A stretch of 64,000 nt of DNA from positions 186,001-250,000 of the forward strand of contig NZ_FQYY01000005.1 of NCBI RefSeq assembly GCF_900141885.1, in the 5' to 3' direction. The notes below the pieces were generated by a model. The model was not told the origin of the DNA, ran no database searches, and saw nothing but the letters and a program-made list of their open reading frames with translations. This stretch comes from Mesonia phycicola (lineage in GTDB: Bacteria > Bacteroidota > Bacteroidia > Flavobacteriales > Flavobacteriaceae). The position numbers and the translations under genes are program-made. Below are positions 10,922-52,237 of the stretch, piece by piece. Within the stretch, counting starts at the first letter, position 1. Every line of letters begins with the position of its first letter.

Positions 10922-11578
10922 ATGAAAACAGTAGCGCAAAGTGTAGAGCAAATTTTAAAAGCACAACCTTTTTTAGAAGAAGCGTTGCAAAGAAGTATTA
11001 TAAACTATAGTGCATTAGCAGAAGAGTTACAACCAGAAATTGCTTCCATTTTAAAAAAACCTGTAAAAACCGGAGCAATTATGATGGCGCTTAGAAGATA
11101 TCAATCCCCTGTTGGAGTGAGTAATAATTTTAAAATTAAAAATGCTTTTAAAAATCTAGGAGATATTACCGTACGTTCTAATATATCTGCATTTACATTT
11201 AAAAATACAACTACCTTGGTAAATTGTCACGGAGAGTTACTGAGTTATGTGTCTGAAAACACTCATTTATTTTATGCCTTTACCCGTGGTATTTTAGAAA
11301 GTAATATTATGATTTCTGGGTCTGAAGCTACAAAAGTGAAAACATTTTTTAAAGAAGAAACACTCATTGTACAACGAGAAGGCTTGGCAGCAATTAGCGT
11401 GCAGTTACCGCAAGATAATTTTAAAGTTGCTGGTTTGTATTACCAGATTTTTAAACATTTAGCTTGGCAAAACATTGCTTTGTATGAAGTGGTTTCTACT
11501 ACTAACGAGTTTACCGTTTTAGTCGAAGAAGAATTGGTAGAGCAAGCTTTTGCAGCAATTAAGAACTTAAAAGTTTAA
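10922..11578 (+). CDS. ACT-domain-like protein, divergent from aspartate kinase
   Basis: A 218-residue soluble protein without signal peptide. The N-terminal 60 residues are helical. The C-terminal stretch from about residue 165 has the beta-alpha-beta pattern of an ACT domain (KVAGLYYQIFKHLAWQNIAL, then a strand). It is divergent from aspartate kinase across 100 bp, so a role in sensing or adjusting aspartate-family amino acids is plausible. That is inference from context and fold pattern; homologues are often annotated as hypothetical or aspartate-kinase-like. No catalytic motif is visible. Confidence 0.6.
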   Translation: MKTVAQSVEQILKAQPFLEEALQRSIINYSALAEELQPEIASILKKPVKTGAIMMALRRYQSPVGVSNNFKIKNAFKNLGDITVRSNISAFTFKNTTTLVNCHGELLSYVSENTHLFYAFTRGILESNIMISGSEATKVKTFFKEETLIVQREGLAAISVQLPQDNFKVAGLYYQIFKHLAWQNIALYEVVSTTNEFTVLVEEELVEQAFAAIKNLKV

Positions 11579-11600
11579 TGAATTATTGTAAATTGGTAGA

Positions 11601-11801
11601 ATGAAGAATAAATAACTTAGGATTGCAGTAATTCTTCTTGGAGCATTAAACGTTTTTCAGGGAGTGCAGTTATTTAGAATTTTAGAAAATTATAAAGAAG
11701 TAGAAATGTGGAGAATGGTTTTTGCTATTGCAGGATTTTCCATCATCTTGCTATTTTCTGTTTTTGTATTCTATAGAATACGTAAATTATCGAGGAAATA
11801 A
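11601..11801 (+). pseudogene. Small membrane protein gene with in-frame TAA at codon 5
   Basis: From the ATG at 11601 the frame reads MKNK, then TAA (11613-11615), then 61 further sense codons to a TAA at 11799-11801. The downstream part is clearly protein-like: a hydrophobic segment (LRIAVILLGALNV), a charged linker (ILENYKEVEMW), a second hydrophobic segment (MVFAIAGFSIILLFSVFVF) and a basic tail. That is a typical 66-residue two-helix inner-membrane protein. One substitution (AAA to TAA) explains the break. Reinitiation at an internal codon or an assembly error are alternatives. Its 3' part recurs as a degraded copy near 13568. Confidence 0.65.
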
Positions 11802-11914
11802 AATATTTTCTCCGTCAACCTGAACTTGATTCAGTTTCTCATTATAGTTTTCCGTTTTATGTAATACGGTGTGATGCTGAAATCGAATATTCAACGGAGT
11901 TAAATAAATTCAGA
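11733..11914 (+). repeat. Direct repeat, copy A (small membrane protein tail plus palindromic DNA)
   Basis: The last 70 bp of the small membrane protein frame and about 110 bp beyond recur, imperfectly, at about 13568-13729. Shared blocks include TAGAATACGTAA, the stretch from ATAAAATATTTTCTCCGTCA to TTGATTCAGTTTCT, and GTTAAATAAATTCAGA near the end. The non-coding part is palindromic, with CTCCGTCAAC at one end and ACGGAG at the other. The two copies flank the lipoprotein pair at 11927-13530. Confidence 0.8.
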
Positions 11915-11926
11915 ATAATATTTCTT

Positions 11927-12637
11927 TTACTTTTTATAAGGTAATTTAGGAAGAGTCATATAATATTCTCCTTTTGAATCTTTTACTTTTCTTACTTTAA
12001 ATTTTGCTTTGGCTCCGTATTTTAATCCCCAATCTTCATTTAAGTCTGTCCATATTCTAATAAAAATGGTTTCAGGGTTGTTGGTGTTTAATGAGTTGTA
12101 TATATAATTCCAATCTTCAATAAGTTCGTCTTTAGAGATGTCAGTATTAATAAATACTAATATTTTGTATTGATAAGAATCAAAATTACTTTCTTTAGGT
12201 AAAATAATTTTACTTGTAATTTCATGAAAATTTCCTAAATAACTATCTATATCTGTGTCTAAAGTGATACTGTCGCATTGAGCGTAATTATCTTTTATGG
12301 ATGATTGTCTAAGTGTGTCTAGTTGAGTTATTCCGCAGTGTGTTTCTCCGTTATAACACATAAGGGAGTTGTTTTTATCATAGATGTATGTTCTGTAAGG
12401 AATAGACATGTAGATGAAACTTTTAATAGTTTCTGTATCTAAATCTTGACTTAATTGAGCATCTATAACATTGTTTTCTATGGGGGCTTTTTTAATATTA
12501 CTATCTATTTCTTCTTGAGAATATACAGTTAACTTGGGTATGCCTGCTATAGTCTTAATTATGCTTCCACAAGAAACTAAGAGTATAACTGTGCTAGCGA
12601 TAAATATATAGGTCAATGTTTTTGATAAGTTTTTCAT
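11927..12637 (-). CDS. Lipoprotein of unknown function (cassette 1)
   Basis: A 236-residue lipoprotein. It starts at the ATG at 12637 (MKNLSK), in preference to the one 4 codons upstream, because the signal peptide is then well formed and ends in a lipobox (LVSCGS). The mature part has a cysteine pair (MCYNGETHCG) and a strand-helix pattern (YKILVFINTDISKDEL) that faintly recalls thioredoxin-like folds; this is not enough to assign a family. It lies between the two copies of the direct repeat, divergent from the next lipoprotein gene, and so belongs to the variable segment. Confidence 0.6.
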   Translation of the reverse strand: MKNLSKTLTYIFIASTVILLVSCGSIIKTIAGIPKLTVYSQEEIDSNIKKAPIENNVIDAQLSQDLDTETIKSFIYMSIPYRTYIYDKNNSLMCYNGETHCGITQLDTLRQSSIKDNYAQCDSITLDTDIDSYLGNFHEITSKIILPKESNFDSYQYKILVFINTDISKDELIEDWNYIYNSLNTNNPETIFIRIWTDLNEDWGLKYGAKAKFKVRKVKDSKGEYYMTLPKLPYKK

Positions 12638-12786
12638 TTTATAAACCATTCCAATTACTTATAACCTTATAAATATTACCTTGATAGAGTTTTTATATTT
12701 TTTTAATTAGCTAAACCGTTAATTTTTATAAATTTCAATTAACTAGCTTAAATTAATAAATATAGGATTTAACTATTAAAATTTAG

Positions 12787-13530
12787 ATGAAAAAATTAGT
12801 CTTTATAGCTTTAATCTCTCTATTTTATTCTTCCTGTAAAAAGGCAATACAAAAAGAGGAAATTTTAGAAATTAAAGAAAATTCTTTTACGTGTAAAATA
12901 GAAGCGGCTAACTTAAAGGTAAATGTAAATAACAACGAACAGTGTGCTAATTATTTTAATTATACCCAAGATAGTGAAAATGGTTTTAAGTTAGAGGCAG
13001 GACAGTTAAAAGATGTAGTTGGGATATTGCTAAATATTAACCTCATTAATTTTCAGGTTAATTCTAATAAAACTAAAGGAAAATTTTTCTATGTAGATTA
13101 TAAGGGTGAATTGAATGATGAGCATAAAACAATGGTGGTAAATCGACTTTTAGAACATTACAATCTGAAAATTGATACGGTACAGAAAAAAGTTGCTATT
13201 AATTCATTGAAAATTACTAATAAAGACAAATTAGGTAGTTTTTTGTCTAAAGTAGATAGACAAAAACAGTTACGAACAAGTTTGAAGGTTTCGGGAAATG
13301 AGGCAGTTTTTGAGAATTTTACTTTGTCTGGGTTTGCAAAATAACTGCAAAAATTTTATTTACAACGCTTTGAATTTGAAGAAAAGGAAGGAGCTGGTAA
13401 TTATTATAGTTTTGAAATGATATTTAGTAAAAACCTAAATGAGATTTTAAATTTTCTAGAAGAAGAATTAGGAGTTTCTATGGAGAAAGTCTACCGAGAC
13501 GTTAATATGGTATATGTATTAGATAAATAA
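12787..13530 (+). pseudogene. Lipoprotein gene interrupted by an in-frame stop (cassette 1)
   Basis: The first open part (12787-13344) encodes a 185-residue lipoprotein with a lipobox near residue 17 (YSSCKK). After its TAA (13342-13344) the same frame stays open for 61 more codons to 13530. The extension is protein-like (FEFEEKEGAGNYYSFEM, then LNEILNFLEEELGV). The whole reads as two similar half-domains, each with a helix of the L-E-x-x-L kind followed by a strand ending in V-x-L, which recalls the DUF3738 layout; that match is tentative. The current product, if made, lacks the second half. Confidence 0.6.
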
Positions 13531-13567
13531 AATAAGTTAAATTTAGAGAATAGTTTTTGTTGTTGTG

Positions 13568-13729
13568 AGTTTTTCTATCATTTTTCTATTTTTTAGAATA
13601 CGTAACTATCGAGGCAATAAAATATTTTCTCCGTCAACCTAAACTTGATTCAGTTTCTAATTCTGCTTTTGTGTTTAGTTAAGTAAATTTTTGATATTGA
13701 AGATTCAACAGAGTTAAATAAATTCAGAG
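13568..13729 (+). repeat. Direct repeat, copy B (degraded)
   Basis: This is the second copy of the 11733-11914 repeat. The small-protein tail is recognisable in frame (SFSII, then RIRN) but has lost about 15 bp, and its stop codon is destroyed by an AGGAAATAA to AGGCAATAA change. The CTCCGTCAACCT palindrome and the GTTAAATAAATTCAGA block are kept. It is followed directly by the copied end of thiL, so it preserves an older order of small membrane protein then convergent thiL. Confidence 0.75.
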
Positions 13730-13767
13730 TGACACTTGTTTTAATTTTTTAATATATCAAAGAAGTT

Positions 13768-13904
13768 TTATTCTTAGTCCTTAGCATCTGTAAAAGAATT
13801 CCATCCGCGAGATTGGATAGGGATTTTTTGGTTGGCTCTGGTAATTAAATGCATCCCTTCGTGTTCTTCCGTCATATGTCCAATTACGGTAAGATTAGGG
13901 TTTG
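13768..13904 (-). pseudogene. Duplicated 3' end of thiL
   Basis: This 137-bp stretch matches 16334-16470, the last 45 codons plus stop of thiL, in the same orientation with 3 mismatches. One mismatch turns a GAA near the end into TAA, so the copied tail would read DAKD and stop two codons early. Similarity ends abruptly at 13904. It has no start codon and cannot make ThiL. The near identity implies a recent copy or recent import from a close relative. Confidence 0.9.
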
Positions 13905-14057
13905 AGTTTAAGTATGTTAAACAAAAGTTAAATAAATAAGATTCTTTAACAGTGTTTTTATATTTATATACGTTACGTTAAGATTTTTCGTTTGGCATTT
14001 GTATGCTGTCCCCCTCAATCGTAAAATCATAAATCTAAGTAAACTAATACTTTATTT
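13905..14057. other. Non-coding spacer in the island
   Basis: About 150 bp of AT-rich DNA between the thiL tail copy and the broken lipoprotein start. I see no open frame, hairpin terminator or repeat related to other parts of the window. Confidence 0.4.
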
Positions 14058-14218
14058 ATGATCAAAAATTATTAATCCCTCCCCTCTCTTCTTTATTTTT
14101 TTTTGCTTGTCAAAAAGATGATTTAAAGGAAAGCGATAATAATAGCATCGATTCAAGAGATTTCTTAACAACCGAAATAGATGATAACGGAAACACAATA
14201 ACAAATAACTGTGAATAA
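14058..14218 (+). pseudogene. Lipoprotein head with a probable one-base frameshift
   Basis: ATG at 14058 starts MIKN and stops at once (TAA). Adding one A to the A-run at 14064-14068 gives MIKKLL followed by the other frame, IPPLSSLFFFACQKDD: a complete lipoprotein signal peptide with its lipobox cysteine at 14108-14110. It continues as an acidic, Asn-rich stretch to TAA at 14216-14218. The product would be only about 53 residues, so this may be the head of a longer gene that has been cut. The next gene begins 1 bp later. Confidence 0.55.
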
Positions 14219-14219
14219 T

Positions 14220-14744
14220 ATGAAAACGAAATTATTAATATTAATACTTATAACCTTTTCTGTAAATTTGAGTAGAGGTCAAATGACAGTTAACTCGCTT
14301 ACAAGTAGTGAATATAACACAATAGAAATTAATGGAGTTTTGCTTAATACTATCAAAAATACCAATGGATCAATTACTCAAATGAACAGTTTGTTCGGTA
14401 ATCCAAATAATATAATTGAGAAGGGTAGTTCAATAAATGAGCTTCATAGAATTTTTATTTACGGTTTGAATGATGGTAATACCATCGAATTTAGTGGTTT
14501 ATCGCTTAATCAGACACCATCTGTCATCCGTTTACATACTCCTTCGATTAAAATTAAAGGTATTAGCGTTAATGTTCAAGATAATATTACCTCATTACCT
14601 TCTATGTGGATTAAAGGTCAAAATAATGATGGTAGCTATTCTATTCTTTTTTCTAAAGATAATGGCGATTGTTGTGTTTTTACTATTGAATACGATAATT
14701 CAACCAATCTTGTAACGATGATAAAATATGAAGAATTCACTTAA
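14220..14744 (+). CDS. Small exported protein of unknown function
   Basis: A 174-residue protein. The ATG at 14220 is chosen over the GTG at 14211 because the signal peptide (MKTKLLILILITFS, ending near SRGQ) then has normal form. The mature part is rich in Asn, Ser and Ile, with a short CC pair near residue 150 and repeated strand-like segments, compatible with a beta-rich periplasmic or secreted protein. I recognise no family. It faces the copied tail of the MMPL exporter gene across a hairpin, the same arrangement as the exported proteins at 48.7-49.8 kb. Confidence 0.6.
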   Translation: MKTKLLILILITFSVNLSRGQMTVNSLTSSEYNTIEINGVLLNTIKNTNGSITQMNSLFGNPNNIIEKGSSINELHRIFIYGLNDGNTIEFSGLSLNQTPSVIRLHTPSIKIKGISVNVQDNITSLPSMWIKGQNNDGSYSILFSKDNGDCCVFTIEYDNSTNLVTMIKYEEFT

Positions 14745-14837
14745 AAATTGTTGATTTTAATTACTAGGATAAAGGTATATAAATGAAAAGCATTACTCAT
14801 GTAAGTCTTGTTTGTTTTGTCCTAAGTAAGACTTTAG

Positions 14838-14866
14838 AAACCGATAACTACCCTAGTTGTCGGTTT
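14838..14866. terminator. Terminator carried with the MMPL tail copy
   Basis: The imperfect stem AACCGATAACTA/TAGTTGTCGGTT around CCC, followed by a T-run. It corresponds in place and partly in sequence to the terminator at 49809-49836 beside the intact MMPL gene. Confidence 0.65.
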
Positions 14867-14969
14867 TTTCTTGCTCTAAATTTTCATCGTCTCCTAAGGT
14901 TCTTAAATTTGGTTCTTTTAGCGTTTTCTTGTTTGCAATATTTCTTTCTAATGAAAGTAATAGTTGTGG
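14853..14969 (-). pseudogene. Fragment: C-terminal 38 codons of an MMPL/RND-type exporter gene
   Basis: On the minus strand the fragment reads LLLSLERNIANKKTLKEP and then a divergent acidic tail ending EKTDN, stop. This aligns in frame with the C-terminus of the exporter encoded at 49823-52237. A block of 44 bp (14911-14954) is identical to 49887-49930, while the tail beyond it is clearly diverged with small gaps. It therefore looks like the 3' end of an orthologous or older copy rather than a fresh duplicate. Similarity ends near 14970. Confidence 0.88.
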
Positions 14970-14973
14970 TTAG

Positions 14974-15642
14974 AATTATAAAAAGAAAGGTATTTTTCAG
15001 TTGACAGATAAAGATAATTATAACGCTTATCATGACTTTGTGGAGAGCAAGAATACAGGGTGGACTTATACAGGTCCTTCTGATTTAGAAAATAGTTTCC
15101 ATGCTATATTGAGTGCTTTGTGGTTTTATCAAGAGAACGTTCTAGATAATATTGATATTGATGAGAATACTACTGCAGATTCAAAAGTGCGAATACACAT
15201 GCATACCAATTATATATTTTCTGGTGGTTTAAAAACAGAAACTACCCCAAGTGTACAAGATTTATTTGGGTTTGCAGATTTTTATAAAACAAAGAAAGAC
15301 TTAGGTGCAGATGACAGTGAGGATATTACAAGTATTGTGGTAAGTAGGAGAGGTCTTTACGCTTTAAGAATAGGTGACCCACAAAAAGTTGAAAATTTTG
15401 CTTCCGATATAGATAATCCTAATTTAGAAGATAAAGGGGTTACTTACAAACAAGCACTTAAGAATTTATATGATAAAAATGTATTGGAGGAAACAAAATT
15501 AATGTGCAATAATTGTCCAGATGCTTATGAAGCAGCCTTGTTTGAAATGAATTTTATTGAGTTTGTGAAATATATTCCAGGAATAAAGGTTTTTCGAAGA
15601 TTAAATGATGGTAATGGTAATTATACTTGGGAAGAAATATAA
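14974..15642 (+). pseudogene. Headless JAB/JAMM-like domain protein fragment
   Basis: An open frame from just after the MMPL fragment to 15642. It has no ATG or signal peptide; the first possible start is a TTG at 15001, so the gene has most likely lost its 5' part. Counting from 15001 (213 residues), H66-x-H68 followed by S84-x-x-D87 matches the HxH...SxxD metal-site pattern of JAB/MPN-like metallopeptidase domains, with a longer spacer than usual. Such domains often end bacterial polymorphic toxins and Rhs-type proteins. A CNNC pair lies near residues 169-172. Family membership is inferred from this motif only. Confidence 0.55.
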
Positions 15643-15661
15643 ATTAATTAATAAGAAAAAA

Positions 15662-16276
15662 ATGAAATATATATATATTATAACTATCTGTCTATTAATG
15701 TCTGCTTATAGTGTTAATGCTCAAAACGAAACAATAGTACCTATTGAAAACTGGTGCACCGTAAATTTATCTGATGATATTTATTATTTTAAAGATGTAA
15801 ATAATTATTTAGATAAATTTGTAGGGGTATGGGTATATTCAAATAACAATACCTATCTAAAATTAGAAATTATAAAAGAAACTCACCAAGATATGAATGG
15901 TGGTTTTCCTTTGAATTTAGATGATTTTGAAGACTATATAGTAATCTCTATGCAGTATATGGAAAATGGTATAGAAAAATACAACAGCCTGCCTTTAACT
16001 ATCAATAGAGATAACCCAAGAATGAGTGGGAATAATATTGATGCTAACAATACAAATAAAATAAAAATCACTTATGCCGAACCCTCTTTAATTAGTTGTG
16101 AAAGAATTATGCAGGCAGATTTATTTTTAGAATTTTTAGGAGAGAATCCTAACCAATTACAATGGATCCGCGTAGATGGTTTGCCTGATTATGGTAGCCC
16201 AAACATATGCCCTAGTGGAGTAGAAGACGACACGTCATTTTTAATACCAGCCAATTTAATATTGGCTAAGCAATAA
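15662..16276 (+). CDS. Exported protein, DUF6705-like
   Basis: A 204-residue protein with a signal peptide ending at VNAQ. The ATG at 15662 is chosen because the longer frame from 15605 would put 19 residues before the signal peptide. The mature start (PIENW, then YYFKDVNNYLDKFVGVW) resembles DUF6705, a Bacteroidota family of small secreted proteins of unknown role; that match is from memory of the family pattern. It starts 19 bp after the JAB-like fragment in the same direction and could be its partner or immunity protein. That role is speculative. Confidence 0.6.
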   Translation: MKYIYIITICLLMSAYSVNAQNETIVPIENWCTVNLSDDIYYFKDVNNYLDKFVGVWVYSNNNTYLKLEIIKETHQDMNGGFPLNLDDFEDYIVISMQYMENGIEKYNSLPLTINRDNPRMSGNNIDANNTNKIKITYAEPSLISCERIMQADLFLEFLGENPNQLQWIRVDGLPDYGSPNICPSGVEDDTSFLIPANLILAKQ

Positions 16277-16283
16277 CAATAAC

Positions 16284-16313
16284 AAAAAATCCCGCTATCA
16301 AGCGGGATTTTTT
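16284..16313. terminator. Bidirectional terminator between the exported protein gene and thiL
   Basis: A perfect stem AAAAAATCCCGCT/AGCGGGATTTTTT with an ATCA loop, between convergent genes. Confidence 0.9.
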
Positions 16314-16333
16314 GTTATTTCAGCCAAAGAAAA

Positions 16334-17392
16334 TTATTCTTCGTCCTTAGCATCTGTAAAAGAATTCCATCCGCGAGATTGGATAGGGATTTTTTGGTTT
16401 GCTCTGGTAATTAAATGCATTCCTTCGTGTTCTTCCGTCATATGTCCAATTACGGTAAGATTAGGGTTTGCTTTTATTTTTTCAAAATCTTTTTGGTCAA
16501 TAGTGAAAAGTAATTCATAATCTTCGCCTCCGCTTAAAGAAACAGTAGTGCTATCTATATTAAACTCTTCGCAAACAGAAATAACAGCAGGATCTAATGG
16601 TATTTTTTCTTCAAACAAATTAGCACCAACTTTAGAGTTTTTACACAAGTGTATAATTTCAGAAGAAAGTCCGTCGCTAATATCAATCATAGAAGTAGGT
16701 TGTACTTCTAACGCTTTCAAAAGACCAGGAATATCTTTTCTTGCTTCAGGTTTTAATTGTCTCTCAACAATATAAGTGTAAGGCTCTAAATCTGGTTGAG
16801 AGTTTGGGTTTACTTTAAAAACTTGCTTTTCACGTTCTAGCACTTGTAATCCCATGTAAGCCGCACCTAAATCGCCGGTAACCACAAGTAAATCGTTTGG
16901 TTTTGCTCCGCTTCTTGTAGTAATAGCTTCTTTTTTAGCTCTACCAATTGCGGTAATGCTAATTACTAAACCAGAAGTAGAAGAGGTAGTGTCACCACCA
17001 ACCACATCTATATTATAAGTTTTAGAAGCTAGTAAAATGCCAGCATATAATTCTTCTAATGCTTCCACAGGAAATCTATTAGAAGCAGCAATAGAAACGG
17101 TAACTTGTGTAGCCTCTGCATTCATCGCATACACATCAGAAAGGTTTACCATAATTGCTTTATAGCCTAAATGCTTTAACGGCATAAAAGACAAATCAAA
17201 ATGAACACCTTCTACTAGCATATCTGTGGTAATTACCACTTCGTCATTTTCAAAATTTAAAACCGCAGCATCATCGCCAATACCAATTTTGGTAGAAGTT
17301 TGTTTAATGTCAAAAAACTTAGTTAAGTGATCTATAAGTCCAAATTCACCTAATTCAGATAAGCTGGTTCTACTTTCTTTATTATCGAACAT
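16334..17392 (-). CDS. thiL: Thiamine-monophosphate kinase
   Basis: A 352-residue cytoplasmic kinase that converts thiamine phosphate to thiamine diphosphate. It has the AIR-synthase-like fold with the GIGDDAAV motif near residue 40, a VVGGDT motif, DISDGL and SGGEDYELL, all typical of ThiL. It is a single gene, divergent from the suf operon. Its last 137 bp are duplicated upstream at 13768-13904, and the intact copy shows no damage. Confidence 0.95.
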   Translation of the reverse strand: MFDNKESRTSLSELGEFGLIDHLTKFFDIKQTSTKIGIGDDAAVLNFENDEVVITTDMLVEGVHFDLSFMPLKHLGYKAIMVNLSDVYAMNAEATQVTVSIAASNRFPVEALEELYAGILLASKTYNIDVVGGDTTSSTSGLVISITAIGRAKKEAITTRSGAKPNDLLVVTGDLGAAYMGLQVLEREKQVFKVNPNSQPDLEPYTYIVERQLKPEARKDIPGLLKALEVQPTSMIDISDGLSSEIIHLCKNSKVGANLFEEKIPLDPAVISVCEEFNIDSTTVSLSGGEDYELLFTIDQKDFEKIKANPNLTVIGHMTEEHEGMHLITRANQKIPIQSRGWNSFTDAKDEE

Positions 17393-17418
17393 AATTTTTC
17401 GTTTTCATTTTGAGTTTG

Positions 17419-17426
17419 CAAAAATA
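17419..17426 (-). promoter_or_regulatory. -7 box of thiL
   Basis: Minus-strand TATTTTTG matches TAnnTTTG, 26 nt upstream of the thiL ATG. No -33 motif is evident at the usual spacing. Confidence 0.5.
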
Positions 17427-17599
17427 AGCTTTTTGAAAACGATAACCTTAACTTCAATTAAAACATTACTTCTGAAAAGAATTTAGTTTTTTTACGACCA
17501 ATATTTGTGTGAGCAACCGCTATTAGCGTGATAGCATTTTCTAATTGTAAAATAAATTAGAATAATGTTTCGCTATATGGTATTCACGGTTGTAAATGG

Positions 17600-17607
17600 T
17601 ATATTTG
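17600..17607 (+). promoter_or_regulatory. -7 box of the suf operon
   Basis: TATATTTG matches TAnnTTTG, 29 nt before the sufA start. The 243-bp thiL-suf gap shows no clear Fur- or IscR-like palindrome by eye. Confidence 0.55.
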
Positions 17608-17636
17608 TGCAATTAAATTAATTAACGATTTGCGTT

Positions 17637-26145: not shown

Positions 26146-29100
26146 TTAACTTACTGTATTTTTATTCATTTTTATCTGTAACCACATTTTAAATTTAGTA
26201 ACTAAGAAGTATAAAACAGGAACAATAATTAAGGTCAAGAAAGTTGCAATAAACAAACCATAAATAACAGTTTTAGCTAAAGGTCCCCAGAAAATTACGT
26301 TATCTCCACCAAAGTAGATATTTGCATCTAACTCAGAAAATAAGGTGAAAAAGTTAAGGTTAAACCCTATAGATAATGGTATAAGTCCTAAAATGGTGGT
26401 AATAGCTGTTAGTAATACAGGTCTTAAACGAGCTTTACCAGCTTCAACTACACTTTCAAAAAGGTCTGGAGTGCTCAAGTATTCTTTCTCACCTAAACCA
26501 AGTTTTAGTTTTTTTCTATCTACAATAAGCTGCGCATAATCTAATAACACTACTCCATTATTTACTACAACTCCGGCTAAAGAAATGATCCCTACCATAG
26601 TCATCATAATTACAAAAGCTTCTCCGCTAATTACTAAACCTCCAAATACACCAATAAAGCTTAAGAAAATTGCCAACATGATTATAGTTGGTTTAGAAAT
26701 TGAATTAAATTGGAATATTAAAATAAAGAAGATTAAAGCCAGTCCAGTAAAAAATGCACCTACTAAGAAAGCCATTTGCTTGTTCTGTTCTTCTATTTGC
26801 CCAGTGTAATCTACGTGTACATCGTCAGACATATTTTCAAAACCTTTCATTTCGTCTTGTATCTGAGTCACAATTGCGCCAGCATCTGTAAATCCAGGAG
26901 CCAATGCAGAGTAAACAGTAACTATACGTTTAGTGTCTTTGTGCTTAATGGCGCTAAACCCAGAGGTGTTTTTGTAAGTTGCTACAGTAGATAACGGTAC
27001 ACTTTTCACCTGTCCGGTATTATCTCTAAATGTAATATTTTGGTTAAATAAAGCACTTCTATTATATCTATTTTCTTCATTAAAACGAACATAAATATCA
27101 TAATCGTCTCCATCTTCTTTGTAAATACCTGCTTTAGATCCGAAAATAGAGTTTCTTAATTGTTGTCCAATTTGAGAAGCACTAATACCTAATTCACCTG
27201 CTTTTTCACGATCTATTTCAATACGCATGCTAGGTTTGTCTTTATTAACATCAATTTTCAATTCATCAATCCCTTGTATGTTTTTAGAGTTGATAAATTC
27301 ACGCATATTTTCAGCAGTATTGATTAATTCATTATAATCATTTCCTTGAATTTCAATATTGATTGGAGAACCTGCTGGAGGACCGTTTTGATCTTTTTCT
27401 ACTGAGATTAAAACTCCTGGGTATATACCTGTAAGGGCTTCTTGTACCTTTTGTCTAAGAACTTCACTGTCTTTTCCTTGTCTAAATTTAAACTCACGCA
27501 TAGAAGCGGTAATTTTTCCTTTATGTGGCATTTCTGCAGAAGAACCTCCATCTGTTTGTGGGTTACCAGCACCTTCTCCTACTTGAGAAACTGCGCTTTC
27601 TACCATAAAGTTATAGTCACCATTTTTATACTCATCATTATCAAGCACCTTAAAAACACGTTGTTCTATTTTTTTGGTAATAGCATTTGTCTTTTCTATT
27701 GAAGTACCTTGTGGGTACTCTATATAAACAATAATTTGATTTGGCTTATTGTCTGGGAAAAACTCTATTTTAGTACGTTTTTGCCCCAAAGAAATCCCAA
27801 AGGCTACAAAAGATAAAATAAGTAATAGAAAAGTACCTATTGATAGAATGTATGGTTTTTTGCCAGTAAGAGATTTTCTTAGTTGACGTTCGTACCAGTT
27901 TTCTAGTTTTACAAGAGTTTTAGTTTGAAAACTATTGGCCCATTTTCTAAGAAATAATCTGTATACCCAAAGCATGATAGCAGTAAACACCATAAGCGTA
28001 CCAAGTGCTTGGTATACGCCACCCATAATAAGAATTAAAACACCTATTATGGCCATACATACGGTAAGAATAACAATGCGTTTTATAGGCATATCTTTAT
28101 CTTCAATAGTCATAAAATCTGAAACCAAAACCGAATTGAAGAAAATGGCTACAAATAATGACGACCCGAGTACGGTAGATAAAGTAATAGGTAAAATAAT
28201 CATAAATTCACCCATAATTCCTGGCCACAAACCTAGCGGAATAAACGCGGCAACTGTGGTAGCGGTAGAAATTATAATAGGAAAAGCAATTTCTCCAATA
28301 CCTTTTTTAGCAGCTTCCATTCTGTTCATGCCTTCTTCTTCCATAAGACGGTAAACATTTTCTACTACTACAATACCATTATCTACCAGCATTCCTAATC
28401 CCATAATTAAACCAAATAAAACCATGGTGTTTAGAGTGTACCCTAATGCTTCTAACAACATTAAAGACATAAACATAGACATTGGTATAGCAAAGCCTAC
28501 AAAAATTGCATTTTTGAATCCTAAGAAAAACATTAGTACGGTTACTACTAATAGCACTCCAAAAATAATGTTGTTAACCAAGTCATCTACTTGCCCAATG
28601 GTAACAGAAGACTGGTCGTTAGCTATAGTTACTTGTACATCTGCAGGAAACTCGTTTTCTTGTGCGTTTGCTACTATTTCTCTTACCTGCTCTGCAGCAT
28701 CTACCATGTTTTTACCTGCTCTTTTCTTTACATCTAGCATTACCACAGGCTTTCCAAATTCTCTAGCGTAGGTGGTTTTGTCTTCTTCTTTAAAACTTAC
28801 ACTTGCTACATCTCTAAGGTAAATAGGTTTTCCGTTTTCAGATTTTACTACAAAATTATTTAGTTCTTTAGGGTCTTCTATTTCTCCTAAAATTCTAATG
28901 GTTCGTCTTTGTCCGCTAGCTTTTATATTACCTGCAGATAGAGTAACATTACCTGCATTAATACTGTTAATAATGTCGCTAAAAGTAACTTTAGCAGCCA
29001 TCATTTTATAAATATCTACGGCGACTTCTACCTCTTTTTCTTGTGCACCACGAATAGAGGCTTCTTTAATTTCGTTTAAGTCTTCAATATCATCTTGAAG

Positions 29101-29625
29101 GTATTCTGCAAATTCTTTTAATTTCTCAATAGTGTAATCTCCAGAGATATTAATATTAAGAATAGGCATTTCTTCAGATAAACTAAGCTCAAAAACATCT
29201 GGCTCTACTTTAGCGCCATTAAAGGTAGGCCAGTCTTCGCTTGAAGTTTCTGTATCTATCTCGTCTTTTACTTTTTGTTTGGCTTTTTCTACAGAAATAT
29301 CTTCGTCAAACTCTACCATAATCATCCCGTAATCTTCTTGAGAGGTAGAGGTGATTTCAACTACATTACTAACAGTTTTTAGTTGATCTTCTAGTGGGTC
29401 TATTACTAGTTTTTCAATATCTTCTGCAGTGTTACCTGGGTAAATGGTACTAACGTAAATTTTAGTTTCGTTTACTTCAGGGAAATTTTCTCTTGGCATA
29501 TCGAAAAAAGACGAGATACCTAGATAGAAGATTACCAATATTAAAACATAGATGGTAGTCTTATTGTTGATGGCCCAGGATGATAATTTAAATTCCTTAT
29601 CAACTTGATTTTTATTGTCTGTCAT
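26146..29625 (-). CDS. RND efflux pump, inner-membrane transporter
   Basis: An 1159-residue resistance-nodulation-division permease of the AcrB/MexB/CusA superfamily. It exports substrates out of the cell by proton antiport. It shows an N-terminal helix, a large periplasmic region, the TM4 segment GLGMLVDNGIVVVENVYR, a second periplasmic half and a C-terminal six-helix bundle with AGVVVNNGVVLLDY. The first half of the TM bundle is longer than usual, with extra helices near residues 510-550. It is last in the operon TetR-TolC-adaptor-pump. The substrate is unknown. Confidence 0.93.
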   Translation of the reverse strand: MTDNKNQVDKEFKLSSWAINNKTTIYVLILVIFYLGISSFFDMPRENFPEVNETKIYVSTIYPGNTAEDIEKLVIDPLEDQLKTVSNVVEITSTSQEDYGMIMVEFDEDISVEKAKQKVKDEIDTETSSEDWPTFNGAKVEPDVFELSLSEEMPILNINISGDYTIEKLKEFAEYLQDDIEDLNEIKEASIRGAQEKEVEVAVDIYKMMAAKVTFSDIINSINAGNVTLSAGNIKASGQRRTIRILGEIEDPKELNNFVVKSENGKPIYLRDVASVSFKEEDKTTYAREFGKPVVMLDVKKRAGKNMVDAAEQVREIVANAQENEFPADVQVTIANDQSSVTIGQVDDLVNNIIFGVLLVVTVLMFFLGFKNAIFVGFAIPMSMFMSLMLLEALGYTLNTMVLFGLIMGLGMLVDNGIVVVENVYRLMEEEGMNRMEAAKKGIGEIAFPIIISTATTVAAFIPLGLWPGIMGEFMIILPITLSTVLGSSLFVAIFFNSVLVSDFMTIEDKDMPIKRIVILTVCMAIIGVLILIMGGVYQALGTLMVFTAIMLWVYRLFLRKWANSFQTKTLVKLENWYERQLRKSLTGKKPYILSIGTFLLLILSFVAFGISLGQKRTKIEFFPDNKPNQIIVYIEYPQGTSIEKTNAITKKIEQRVFKVLDNDEYKNGDYNFMVESAVSQVGEGAGNPQTDGGSSAEMPHKGKITASMREFKFRQGKDSEVLRQKVQEALTGIYPGVLISVEKDQNGPPAGSPINIEIQGNDYNELINTAENMREFINSKNIQGIDELKIDVNKDKPSMRIEIDREKAGELGISASQIGQQLRNSIFGSKAGIYKEDGDDYDIYVRFNEENRYNRSALFNQNITFRDNTGQVKSVPLSTVATYKNTSGFSAIKHKDTKRIVTVYSALAPGFTDAGAIVTQIQDEMKGFENMSDDVHVDYTGQIEEQNKQMAFLVGAFFTGLALIFFILIFQFNSISKPTIIMLAIFLSFIGVFGGLVISGEAFVIMMTMVGIISLAGVVVNNGVVLLDYAQLIVDRKKLKLGLGEKEYLSTPDLFESVVEAGKARLRPVLLTAITTILGLIPLSIGFNLNFFTLFSELDANIYFGGDNVIFWGPLAKTVIYGLFIATFLTLIIVPVLYFLVTKFKMWLQIKMNKNTVS

Positions 29626-29653
29626 GTTTATTTACTTTAAGAAATTTAGAAAG

Positions 29654-30835
29654 TTACTTGCTTTCTTCATAAGAAATCATCTCTACCGATTGCCCATCTT
29701 TAACGCTTCTGGCTCCTTCGTTAATGATTAAATCGTCTTTTTGAAGTCCTTTAGTAACTTCTACTACATCTCCTTGTATTTTTCCTGTTTCAATAATGGT
29801 TCTATTGGCGTTTCCAATATTTTTATCATTTGCATTTTTTACTACGTAAACATACTGTTCTCCATTAGCATTTTCAGAAATGATACTTTGCGGAATTAAA
29901 ATTGCTTTTTCACTAGAGTAATCATTTATTCTCACTTTTGCAGTTAAATTAGGTTTGATGTTTTTCTCTTTGTTTGGTACATCAATCTCTACTTTAAAAG
30001 TTCTGTTGCTTGGGTCTACATAATTGGCAACTTGTTTTATTTTGGTTTCTATAGTTTTGTTAAGCACCGGAATAAAAACTTCTGTTTTTTTACCTTTAGT
30101 AACACTTTCTATATAACGCTCTGGTACATTAGTTTCAATGTACATGTTATCTAAGTTTACAATTCTGATTAATGGAGATTGTCCTGGAGATACTACATTT
30201 CCTTGCTCTGTAATTACATCGTCAATAGTACCTGTGAATGGTGCGCGAATTTGAGTTTTACCAATTTGTTGTTGCAATTGGCTTACCGCTTTTTGTTGAG
30301 CTTTGTAATTAGACTCTGCTTGTAAAAATGTGATTTCACTACCAATGTTTTGGTCCCAAAGACGTTTTTGTCTCTCGTAAGTAGTTTTAGCTAATTCTTC
30401 TTGAATTTTTAACTTTGCTAATTGTGAGCCAAGGCCACCATCATCAATTTTTGCTAAAAGTTGCCCTTTTTTAACTTGGTCACCTTCGTTAACATATACT
30501 TCGGTAAGAATACCGCTGTATTCTGGGTATATAGTAAGTACTTGTTGGGTAGTAATATTACCTTGTAATTCTAATTGGTGTTCAAAATTTTCTTCAATTG
30601 CTTGAATAGTGGTTACTAATGGAATTTTTTTAACCGTATCTAGCTTAGAAATTTTAGTGTCTAGCTCTTTAATTTTAGAGTTTATGTTTTCTTGTTGAGA
30701 AACTAGCTCAGTTCTTTTTTGTCTTATTTTGGTAAGATCGTTAGATTCTAAAGCTTTTTCAAAAGATTTTTCTTCTTTGTTACCGCAAGCGCTAACAACC
30801 ATTGAAGCGATGATGATTAGTATATAATTTTTCAT
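29654..30835 (-). CDS. RND efflux periplasmic adaptor (membrane fusion protein)
   Basis: A 393-residue lipoprotein (lipobox VSACGN near residue 17). A coiled-coil stretch lies at about residues 40-70. The biotinyl-lipoyl half motif VYVNEGDQVKKGQLLAKID is followed by a second helical hairpin and the matching half IRAPFTGTIDDV, then a beta-barrel region. It bridges the permease and the outer-membrane channel. It lies 28 bp from the pump gene and 2 bp after the TolC-like gene. Confidence 0.93.
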   Translation of the reverse strand: MKNYILIIIASMVVSACGNKEEKSFEKALESNDLTKIRQKRTELVSQQENINSKIKELDTKISKLDTVKKIPLVTTIQAIEENFEHQLELQGNITTQQVLTIYPEYSGILTEVYVNEGDQVKKGQLLAKIDDGGLGSQLAKLKIQEELAKTTYERQKRLWDQNIGSEITFLQAESNYKAQQKAVSQLQQQIGKTQIRAPFTGTIDDVITEQGNVVSPGQSPLIRIVNLDNMYIETNVPERYIESVTKGKKTEVFIPVLNKTIETKIKQVANYVDPSNRTFKVEIDVPNKEKNIKPNLTAKVRINDYSSEKAILIPQSIISENANGEQYVYVVKNANDKNIGNANRTIIETGKIQGDVVEVTKGLQKDDLIINEGARSVKDGQSVEMISYEESK

Positions 30836-49794: not shown

Positions 49795-49808
49795 TAGTCT
49801 AAATATAA

Positions 49809-49836
49809 AACCGACAACAATTCTAGTTGTCGGTTT
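49809..49836. terminator. Bidirectional terminator beside the MMPL gene
   Basis: The stem ACCGACAAC/GTTGTCGGT with a 7-nt loop, between the convergent exported-protein and MMPL genes. A diverged copy is at 14838-14866. Confidence 0.88.
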
Positions 49837-52237
49837 CTTTATTTTCTTCTTCTAAATCTTCACCGTCTGCTAAAATTTGTAAATGCGGTTCTTTTAGCGT
49901 TTTCTTGTTTGCAATATTTCTTTCTAATGATAGTAGTAGCGATGGTAATAAAAGTAAGTTAGAAAGCATTGCAAATAGTAAAGTGGCAGAAACTAAACCA
50001 CCTAAAGCTTTGGTTCCTCCAAAACTACTAATCATGAATACTGAGAAACCGAAAAACAAAACAATAGAAGTATAGAACATACTTACCGTAGTTTCTCTCA
50101 AAGCTGGATATACAGATTTTTTAATCTTCCAGTTATTTGTTTTAAGTACTTGTCTATATTTTGCTAGAAAATGAATGGTATCATCTACAGAAATACCAAA
50201 GGCAATACTAAATACTAAAATAGTAGAAGGTTTAATAGGTATGCCTAAAAAGCCCATCATACCAGCAGTAATTAGTAGTGGTAGTAAGTTTGGTACAAGA
50301 GAGATTAAAATCATTCTAAAAGAACGGAACATCCAGGCCATAAAAATAGCAATTAGTACTATGGCAAGTGTAAGAGACATTACTAAGTTTTGTACCAAGT
50401 AATTGGTTCCTTTCTGAAAAACTAAAGCTTTACCTGTCATGGTTACTTCATAACGGTCTTCTGGGAAAATTTCGTGAATTTTTGGCCATAAATTAGCTTC
50501 AATTCTTTCCATTTCTTCGGTTCCTACATCTTTCATAAAAACCGTCATGCGTGCATATTGCCCTGTAGAATCTACATAAGCATTTAGCTGATCGCTTGTG
50601 CCGTCTGATAAATTTTTAAGATATGGAAATATAAAGTTTTGCTCTTGTGAGGTTGGTAATTGGTAATATTTCGGATTACCGTTATAATATGCCTGCTTAG
50701 AGTATTTTACTAAATCTACTACAGAAACTGGTTGAGAAAGTTCTGGAGCATCTAGTAATAAATCTTCTAATCGTTGCATTTTCTTCAACGTAGAAAGTTT
50801 AAGCACTCCTTTTTTTCTATTGGTGTTTATTAAAATTTCTAGCGGCATGATACCATCAAACTCGTCTTCAAAAAATTCAATATCTTTAAAAAACTCTGCG
50901 TCTTGTGGCATATCTTCTAACAGACTACCAGAAACTTTAATTTGATAGATACCAATAATACTGGTAGCTAATAAAATTACAGAGCAAATGTAAATAGTAA
51001 TTCTACGGTGTTTTACGGTACGTTGTATCCAATCTACAAAGCCTTCAATCCAAGTTTTACCTAAATGGCGTAAATGCTTTTCTTTAGGTCTAGGCATGTA
51101 GCTGTAGATAATTGGAATAATAAGTAAACTTAGTACAAATATTGCTAAAATATTTACAGAGGCAACCACACCAAATTCTTTTAGTAAGGTACTTTCTGTA
51201 ATAATAAAAGTAGCAAAACCAGAGGCTGTAGTAACGTTAGTCATTAAAGTAGCATTACCAACTTTAGTAATAACTCGTTGTAAAGATTTGGCTTGATTAC
51301 CGTGATTTTTTATTTCTTGCTGGTATTTATTAATAAGAAATATACAGTTAGGGATACCAATTACAATAATTAACGGAGGTATAATTGCTGTTAATACAGT
51401 GATCTCATAATTCATTAATCCTAAAAAACCAAAAGACCACATTACCCCAATAATTACGGTGAACATAGATATTAGTGTGGCTCTAAATGATCTAAAAAAG
51501 AAGAAGAATATTAAAGAGGTTACTAGTAGAGCTCCCCCTACAAAAAGACCAATTTCATCTACAATATTTTGAGAATTTAATGTTCTGATATATGGCATAC
51601 CAGATACGTGCAACTCTAAATTGTTATCTTTTTCAAACTGTTTAAGTAACGGATCTATTTCTTCTAAAATAAAAATCTTTCGTTGCTTAGAGTTTACAAT
51701 GTCTTTTTTAATATAAACAGCCGTTTGTACTGTGTTAGATTTTTTACTGTACACTAAACCTTCATAAAAAGGCAAGCTGTCAAATAATTCTTTTTTATAG
51801 TTGCTTACTTGTTGCTGGTTTAGTTTTTCTTCTTTTACAAGATCTACTAACTCAAATCTTGGGGGGTTATCAAATTTTTGAAGTTTTTTAAGTTTACCAA
51901 CTCCAATAGTAAATTCTACTTCTGGAAAAGAATCTAACTTTTCTGCTAATTGATTCCAAGCATTAAATTTTTCTGGAGTAAATAGAGTAGGGTCGTTGGT
52001 AGCTACTAGAAGTACATTTCCTTCTTCTCCAAACCTATCTAAAAATTTTTGATACTCTTGGTTCACCTCGTGGTGATCCGGTAGTAAATTGGCTTCTGTA
52101 AAAGAGAAGCGCATATTTTTCCATTGTGTACCAAGAAATACGGTGATACAAGCTATAAGAACCAGAATAACTGTTCGGTTTCTTAGTATAATACCTGCAA
52201 TAGTATTCCAGAATCCGAAACTGAAAATTTTAGACAT
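49823..52237 (-). CDS. MMPL/RND-superfamily exporter
   Basis: An 804-residue inner-membrane protein with the RND plan: one helix, a periplasmic domain and a six-helix block, repeated twice. It has the SSD-like segments IIVIGIPNCIFLINKYQQE and FGISVDDTIHFLAKYRQ. MMPL-like exporters of this size move lipids, hopanoids or pigments; the substrate is unknown. No adaptor or outer-membrane channel gene is adjacent. The last 38 codons have a diverged copy at 14853-14969. Confidence 0.85.
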   Translation of the reverse strand: MSKIFSFGFWNTIAGIILRNRTVILVLIACITVFLGTQWKNMRFSFTEANLLPDHHEVNQEYQKFLDRFGEEGNVLLVATNDPTLFTPEKFNAWNQLAEKLDSFPEVEFTIGVGKLKKLQKFDNPPRFELVDLVKEEKLNQQQVSNYKKELFDSLPFYEGLVYSKKSNTVQTAVYIKKDIVNSKQRKIFILEEIDPLLKQFEKDNNLELHVSGMPYIRTLNSQNIVDEIGLFVGGALLVTSLIFFFFFRSFRATLISMFTVIIGVMWSFGFLGLMNYEITVLTAIIPPLIIVIGIPNCIFLINKYQQEIKNHGNQAKSLQRVITKVGNATLMTNVTTASGFATFIITESTLLKEFGVVASVNILAIFVLSLLIIPIIYSYMPRPKEKHLRHLGKTWIEGFVDWIQRTVKHRRITIYICSVILLATSIIGIYQIKVSGSLLEDMPQDAEFFKDIEFFEDEFDGIMPLEILINTNRKKGVLKLSTLKKMQRLEDLLLDAPELSQPVSVVDLVKYSKQAYYNGNPKYYQLPTSQEQNFIFPYLKNLSDGTSDQLNAYVDSTGQYARMTVFMKDVGTEEMERIEANLWPKIHEIFPEDRYEVTMTGKALVFQKGTNYLVQNLVMSLTLAIVLIAIFMAWMFRSFRMILISLVPNLLPLLITAGMMGFLGIPIKPSTILVFSIAFGISVDDTIHFLAKYRQVLKTNNWKIKKSVYPALRETTVSMFYTSIVLFFGFSVFMISSFGGTKALGGLVSATLLFAMLSNLLLLPSLLLSLERNIANKKTLKEPHLQILADGEDLEEENKETDN

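Follow-up and report, generated by a model that had tools for sequence, protein, structure and literature searches.

How did displaced 3' ends of three genes come to lie among exported-protein genes at a locus where no mobility gene is found? The question is raised by an island at 11.58–16.33 kb of a 64,000-nt stretch of contig NZ_FQYY01000005.1 of the marine bacterium Mesonia phycicola (the window; coordinates refer to it unless another genome or locus is named). The island lies between a gene for an ACT-domain-like protein (ACT) and thiL. It contains three partial gene copies, all of them 3' ends, adjoining exported-protein genes. The copied ends belong to a small membrane-protein gene (SP), to thiL, and to an MMPL gene, and the displaced ends are written SP', thiL', and MMPL'. 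Comparison with related genomes (G-numbers) and loci (L-numbers) leads us to read the island as alternative versions of one convergent junction lying side by side, together with a piece of the MMPL junction. The nearest relatives of the genome are mostly named Mesonia.

Three displaced gene ends in one island

The initial annotation, made from sequence alone, had described two SP tails with palindromic DNA, a copy of the thiL end, and a diverged copy of the MMPL end from 35 kb away, and all of these were recovered. The SP tail and palindromic DNA occur at 11761–11935 and 13581–13749, with aligned blocks of 73 nt at 88% and 58 nt at 83% identity and a longer alignment of 79% over 175 nt. The thiL 3' end occurs at 13745–13910 and 16311–16476 (90% ungapped), and the best aligned stretch is 96.5% identical over 143 nt (E 5e-64). 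For MMPL, the copied 3' end and terminator at 14838–14963 match 49808–49939 at 82.6% over 132 nt (E 2e-33). Divergence is 3.5% for the thiL pair (143 nt), 12–17% in the aligned blocks plus indels for SP, and about 17% for MMPL. These unequal values indicate that the tail pairs are of different ages or have different donors. MMPL' is about as far from the MMPL gene of its own genome as are the tails of the nearer Mesonia species, which match that gene at 83% (L146), 81% (L145), and 80% (L142); more distant species give 70–76%. An assembly artefact is unlikely, because the copies are diverged and lie inside a 370-kb contig.

Partial gene copies were surveyed in 370,000 bp of the contig, covering 273 genes of at least 150 aa and 180 non-coding stretches. 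SP is smaller than the 150-aa limit and falls outside this survey. Outside open reading frames (ORFs), no convincing partial gene copy other than the thiL and MMPL tails was found; the one further match is a 35% protein match with an E of 8e-4. The contig survey agrees with the statement of the initial annotation that copies are always of gene ends and never of gene starts, but an exception is known elsewhere. Genome G065 carries a thiL start fragment (C11:2179–2322; residues 2–48, 49%, three stops) upstream of its thiL.

A junction of ancestral form inside the island

The empty site is found in related Mesonia. The order in L017 and L018 is ACT, SP, thiL, and SP and thiL converge without an insert, with about 45–50 bp between the ORF ends. 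The SP homologues there are intact and encode 68 aa (L017) and 67 aa (L018). ACT adjoins thiL in 9 of 12 Mesonia-group loci, and both genes are retained in all six of six relatives. The window has the SP' tail, a second palindromic copy, and the thiL' tail contiguous in the ACT–SP–thiL order. The 24 nt past the thiL' stop match G012 at 24 of 24 positions and L017 at 23 of 24, until palindromic DNA replaces the terminator. The SP'–thiL' piece has the form of the ancestral junction. Intact thiL is followed by a different spacer and then by a terminator like that of L017 and G012, the genus type. The locus thus contains two thiL ends whose 3' flanks differ. It is because the contiguous SP'–thiL' tails reproduce the empty SP–thiL junction that we read the island as juxtaposed junction versions. 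A likeness between the intact-thiL flank and L018 reaches only 8 nt beyond the stop and was dropped as evidence.

These data refine two proposals of the initial annotation. The SP' and thiL' tails are real, but they are contiguous and represent one junction. The idea that tails are carried along with cargo agrees with the two thiL ends, whose different flanks look as if brought in with other DNA. Tail copying as the primary event, for example from reverse-transcribed mRNA ends, was rejected for SP' and thiL' because the two adjoin each other in the ancestral arrangement found in L017.

Organization and cargo of the island

The features of the locus are collected in Table 1. To the left of the SP'–thiL' piece are the longer frameshifted SP, palindromic copy 1, lipoA, and the broken lipoB. 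To the right are a lipoprotein start, secD, the MMPL' tail, fragE, secF, and intact thiL. Four genes of the island are broken or truncated, and the GC content of the patchwork is 28.4% compared to 32.2% for the window. The genome has 14 further short matches to the palindromic DNA, which is thus a dispersed repeat.

Table 1. Features of the ACT–thiL island, its flanking genes, and the distant MMPL gene.
Feature	Coordinates	Strand	Basis
ACT-domain-like protein, conserved left flank	10922..11578	+	ORF; ACT_7 match under cut-off
SP, small membrane-protein gene, frameshift near start	11600..11801	+	sequence
Repetitive extragenic palindrome (REP)-like DNA, copy 1	11802..11935	no strand	repeat comparison
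lipoA, lipoprotein	11927..12649	-	ORF
lipoB, lipoprotein gene, in-frame stop after codon 185	12787..13527	+	ORF; relative in G008
SP' tail, REP-like copy 2, and SP–thiL spacer of ancestral type	13539..13757	+	sequence comparison
thiL', displaced 3' end	13758..13910	-	sequence comparison
Lipoprotein gene start, frameshifted, cut short	14060..14216	+	by-eye reading; similar starts in relatives
secD, exported protein	14220..14744	+	gene neighbourhood of relatives
MMPL', displaced 3' end with terminator	14838..14975	-	sequence comparison
fragE, orphan 3' end of GH19-type lipoprotein gene	14983..15642	+	longer relatives
secF, exported DUF6705 protein	15662..16276	+	PF20448, E 3e-17
Terminator and thiL 3' flank, unlike flank of thiL'	16281..16330	no strand	flank comparison
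thiL, intact, conserved right flank	16334..17392	-	ORF, relatives
MMPL gene, kind of gene from which displaced tail derives	49823..52237	-	sequence

The products of lipoA and lipoB are lipoprotein-like, and those of secD and secF carry signal peptides by a crude test. The ORFs at 12787–13344 and 13345–13527 form the single lipoB gene split by the in-frame stop, and its relative in G008 is an open frame of 273 aa that spans both pieces. The ORF at 15001–15642, within fragE, is likewise no complete gene but an orphan end. fragE aligns to the 3' parts of longer open frames (431–686 aa) in 6 of 396 other Flavobacteriaceae genomes. Four of these relatives were scanned in Pfam and two gave GH19 (L138 above the cut-off, L136 just below it); the other two and fragE itself had no Pfam match. 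fragE also carries an HxH...SxxD stretch that is JAMM-like by eye. A secF relative (DUF6705) lies downstream of the GH19-type lipoprotein gene in L136. Two of the three best secD relatives (L238 and L239) lie directly downstream of a large lipoprotein-type ORF, and the third, which is the best match (L237), is placed among small exported ORFs in a row. From these gene neighbourhoods, the cargo looks like debris of putative polymorphic toxins and immunity proteins. The only candidate effector start is the cut lipoprotein start at 14060–14216, with secD and the MMPL' tail lying between it and fragE.

Mobility and defence families were searched with Pfam, NCBIfam, PHROGs, and PADLOC on the proteins of the window and island only. 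We did not detect an integrase, transposase, phage family, or listed defence family among the island proteins, in agreement with the initial annotation.

Variable junctions in related Mesonia

The content of the ACT–thiL junction differs between species. It holds SP in L017 and L018, nothing in L019, L022, L023, and L033, and a lipoprotein plus a small protein in L025. In L026 and L027 it holds a 62-aa protein that is SP-like by eye without giving an SP match. ACT was not found next to thiL in L020, L021, and L024. The hydrolase–AK junction carries none to three exported or small genes in the seven readable loci of nine; L027 lacks the hydrolase end, and an antisense ORF of L026 was left uncounted. 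At this junction in L022 (6119–7864, window orientation), an SP relative lies next to two lipo235 relatives, and the same cassette families therefore occur at two different convergent junctions. The asnS–MMPL junction varies likewise across the relatives. These comparisons bear out the prediction that exported-protein genes vary at the thiL and asnS–MMPL junctions. The accompanying rule that the junctions are convergent stands insofar as exported genes face the tails, but asnS–MMPL is co-directional between core genes.

The junctions between 41 core genes were then compared in the window and six relatives, and variation was counted where the length differed by at least 250 bp. Such variation was found at four of six convergent, two of six divergent, and 6 of 28 co-directional junctions. 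The comparison of convergent (4/6) with other junctions (8/34) gives a Fisher p of 0.055. That convergent junctions vary most is suggestive, not proof.

Two further differences were observed in the window. The divergent thiL–isc junction (17393–17636) spans 4.9–5.9 kb in the close relatives G012 and G010 compared to 244 bp here. Two adjoining genes at 26146–30835 are 83% and 64% identical to G003, compared to 56–58% and 47–49% to five other Mesonia. Those five genomes are closer than G003 in most other genes, and the block looks swapped.

Displaced thiL ends across the Flavobacteriaceae

The thiL tail alone was used as the query against 397 Flavobacteriaceae genomes, including the window's own. 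It matched 383 genomes, and a second match was present in 14 besides the window's. In 13 of these the second match is downstream of thiL, on the same strand, and about 20 bp to 5.3 kb away. Displaced thiL tails are thus present in 13 of 396 other Flavobacteriaceae genomes, four of them with an E between 0.0045 and 0.02 and an assignment that rests on position. The remaining second match, in G405, is far from thiL and was dropped as chance.

Twelve of the 13 genomes share one small convergent neighbour gene. This gene is an old thiL neighbour, because 52 of 80 named loci carry a relative of it downstream of thiL on the opposite strand. The displaced copies average 0.705 to each other (55 pairs, 11 genomes, without G338) compared to 0.582 to their own thiL. 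The shared neighbour and the closer average similarity among copies make one old event the simplest account of the 12 genomes, and many independent thiL insertions were rejected. In the simplest reading, DNA was inserted once, in a common ancestor, in such a way that thiL gained a new end and its original end was stranded beside the small gene. Between the two ends is a slot that carries genes for a regulator and a membrane protein in G338, G429, G359, and G041 (four genera; named by eye), a hydrolase gene in G431 and G275 (same genus; by eye), and next to nothing in six genomes. Cargo appears to have been swapped or lost since the shared event. G441 is a separate case with exported-looking cargo by eye.

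The best DNA match of the displaced tail to the thiL of the same genome starts 135–150 nt before the gene end in the clade, 143 nt in the window, and 96 nt in G441. The window and clade breakpoints are about 15–20 nt apart in the alignment of a 1,056-nt gene. In G338, the displaced tail and the thiL of that genome share 97% identity, although the copies of its relatives are diverged. The G338 copy looks like a product of gene conversion, and conversion between two tails may therefore keep a pair young.

Some displaced tails (L225, L226, L228, L229, L231, L232) run into inverted repeats of various kinds ahead of the small convergent gene, and these repeats may serve as terminators. A conserved RNA hairpin was rejected after RNAalifold returned 0 pairs on 11 sequences and single folds were mixed. 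The thiL region was also surveyed in 81 loci of other genomes (851 non-coding stretches, and 1,079 genes of at least 150 aa in 80 of the loci). A displaced thiL tail was found only in L161 (G041), a locus added because a second thiL match had already been seen there. The other matches were not used. They comprise paralogues, tandem neighbours, and repeats of 19–36 nt, some of which fall in gene ends, together with brief matches to the start or middle of a gene (L072, L089) and one match to a gene end at the edge of a contig (L086).

An IMG/VR pattern scan, which detects close relatives only, gave no thiL relative. Phage records gave one weak match to the thiL tail (38%, MT838005.1 1749–1874, an unannotated 5.8-kb faecal phage), and plasmid records gave three weak matches, two of them annotated as thiL. 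A phage or plasmid source of the tail was rejected on these results. None of the titles listed by the literature searches deals with displaced thiL ends.

Origin of the island

We favor, at a probability of about 0.55, an exchange like that of a minimal mobile element in which additive, one-sided integration duplicated the anchoring gene ends. SP and thiL would have faced each other in the ancestral state. The donors would be relatives whose same housekeeping genes end beside other exported-protein genes. Homology within a short gene tail would anchor one end of the incoming DNA, and the remainder would be added without replacing resident DNA. Either one RecA crossover with a fragment in circular or concatenated form or homology-facilitated illegitimate recombination could be the route. 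Such an event would keep the gene whole, with one tail beside the new cargo and the other tail beyond it. The layout of the island, the empty site of relatives, the unlike flanks of the two thiL ends, the unequal divergence, and the lack of a mobility family are observed; we infer the foreign donors, the resident version, natural transformation, the order of events, and the toxin or immunity character of the cargo. A ComEC-family gene is present, and the same family was matched in 10 of 14 control genomes, E. coli included. In E. coli, a duplication product of the lacZ end was obtained by polymerase chain reaction in 56 of 60 integrants examined, and the duplications of 109–950 bp in 14 sequenced integrants were explained as single crossovers (PMC3240628). 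A Vibrio study describes effector–immunity modules gained additively, "perhaps" by homology-facilitated illegitimate recombination (PMC5361080).

Several points weigh against this exchange. No donor or intermediate-state strain was found among 15 other Mesonia genomes, where fragE and secD have no match and lipoA has one weak match. Simple homology does not explain an MMPL piece at a junction 35 kb from MMPL. The tails span only about 96–150 nt, a narrower range than expected from random breakpoints. Either thiL flank could be the imported one or the last to arrive. Gene conversion, as suggested for G338, could make the thiL pair look young.

As an alternative, the island could be a relic of site-specific integration. 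An integrase-bearing element would have recombined within the end of thiL, brought a replacement tail that pushed the old one aside, and eventually lost its integrase. Integrative sites in gene 3' ends typically show direct repeats and a regenerated gene end, and the thiL tail provides such a direct repeat with a displaced gene end (143 nt at 96.5%). The displaced tails downstream of thiL in 13 other genomes, and the closely spaced breaks of two separate events, in the window and in the 12-genome clade, also fit. However, no integrase was noticed by eye between thiL and the displaced tail in the window, G338, G429, G359, G041, G431, G275, or G441, and the family searches gave none among the island proteins. 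The virus, phage, and plasmid comparisons offer no close carrier, G441 breaks at 96 nt before the stop, and the SP and MMPL tails are left unexplained. We regard this explanation, the main rival, as unlikely but not negligible. The view of the initial annotation that no classical mobile element is involved is supported by the lack of a mobility family. For thiL, this view is weakened by the recurrence of displaced tails across the family and by two events whose breakpoints are about 15–20 nt apart. A broader and rather improbable idea is that the thiL 3' end is a recurrent docking point in Flavobacteriaceae. DNA would enter at a preferred point about 140–150 nt before the stop, the gene end would be regenerated, the old end would stay, and the slot between the ends would exchange or lose cargo over long times. 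If so, the narrow size range of the tails (96–150 nt, those of MMPL and SP among them) would suggest that short gene 3' ends are handled by a process not yet described.

A tandem duplication of the thiL–MMPL region or junction followed by deletions would require no foreign DNA. It would account for the placement of MMPL' next to the left end of the thiL side, the order expected at a collapsed tandem-duplication join, and for the high identity of the two thiL ends. A single local duplication fits poorly, because the thiL 3' flanks differ and the pairs diverge unequally. thiL' also lacks the fragE–secF neighbour, fragE and secD have no relative in the other Mesonia genomes, and local rearrangement is accordingly quite unlikely in our estimate. 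Alternatively, the island could be an old toxin–immunity locus grown by effector displacement, with housekeeping tails as incidental passengers. The orphan end fragE, the relatives of secD and secF downstream of large lipoprotein-type genes, and the Vibrio precedent (PMC5361080) agree with this account. Set against them, the sole possible effector start is the cut lipoprotein start, lipoA and lipoB have no shown link to toxins, and toxicity and immunity are putative. We consider a toxin–immunity origin very unlikely.

The additive exchange that we favor has consequences for reading such loci. Displaced gene tails would be readable scars of additive DNA uptake. They would orient gene gains that lack an integrase, and such junctions would be places that collect exported, toxin-related genes. 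The thiL slot offers a place to follow exchange across a family.

Relation to known systems

The minimal mobile element is said to go back to Saunders and Snyder in 2002. The term refers to variable genes between two conserved genes that are transferred by homologous recombination alone, as defined in PMC8627216. The island resembles this system in its conserved flanks, ACT and thiL, and in having no mobility genes. It differs in that a plain double crossover replaces DNA and leaves no tails, whereas the island keeps several versions and duplicated tails.

Integrative elements in gene 3' ends share with the island a regenerated gene end, a displaced old end, and direct repeats. In contrast, no integrase was found in the island, the cargo is short, and several unrelated tails occur together. 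A Riemerella island with its integrase is a reported example of such an element (PMC6764341). The island is also unlike a transposon or insertion sequence, since no transposase was found among its proteins.

Likenesses are also found in additive integration. The single-crossover and illegitimate recombination products of PMC3240628 have an insert anchored in the 3' part of a gene and a partly duplicated gene end. They come from a laboratory conjugation assay, whereas the event here is read from the anatomy of a natural genome. The displacement arrays of the Vibrio type VI secretion system (PMC5361080) have additive modules, leave old genes and an effector 3' end behind, and have no known integrase. 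The Vibrio arrays anchor in a conserved region upstream of the effector module, whereas the anchors here would be housekeeping gene tails. The initial annotation had put the island forward as its best candidate for something undescribed, a claim that these comparisons do not support. Exchange between conserved flanks is the minimal mobile element (PMC8627216), one-sided additive integration with duplicated gene ends has precedents (PMC3240628, PMC5361080), and the kind of process is already known.

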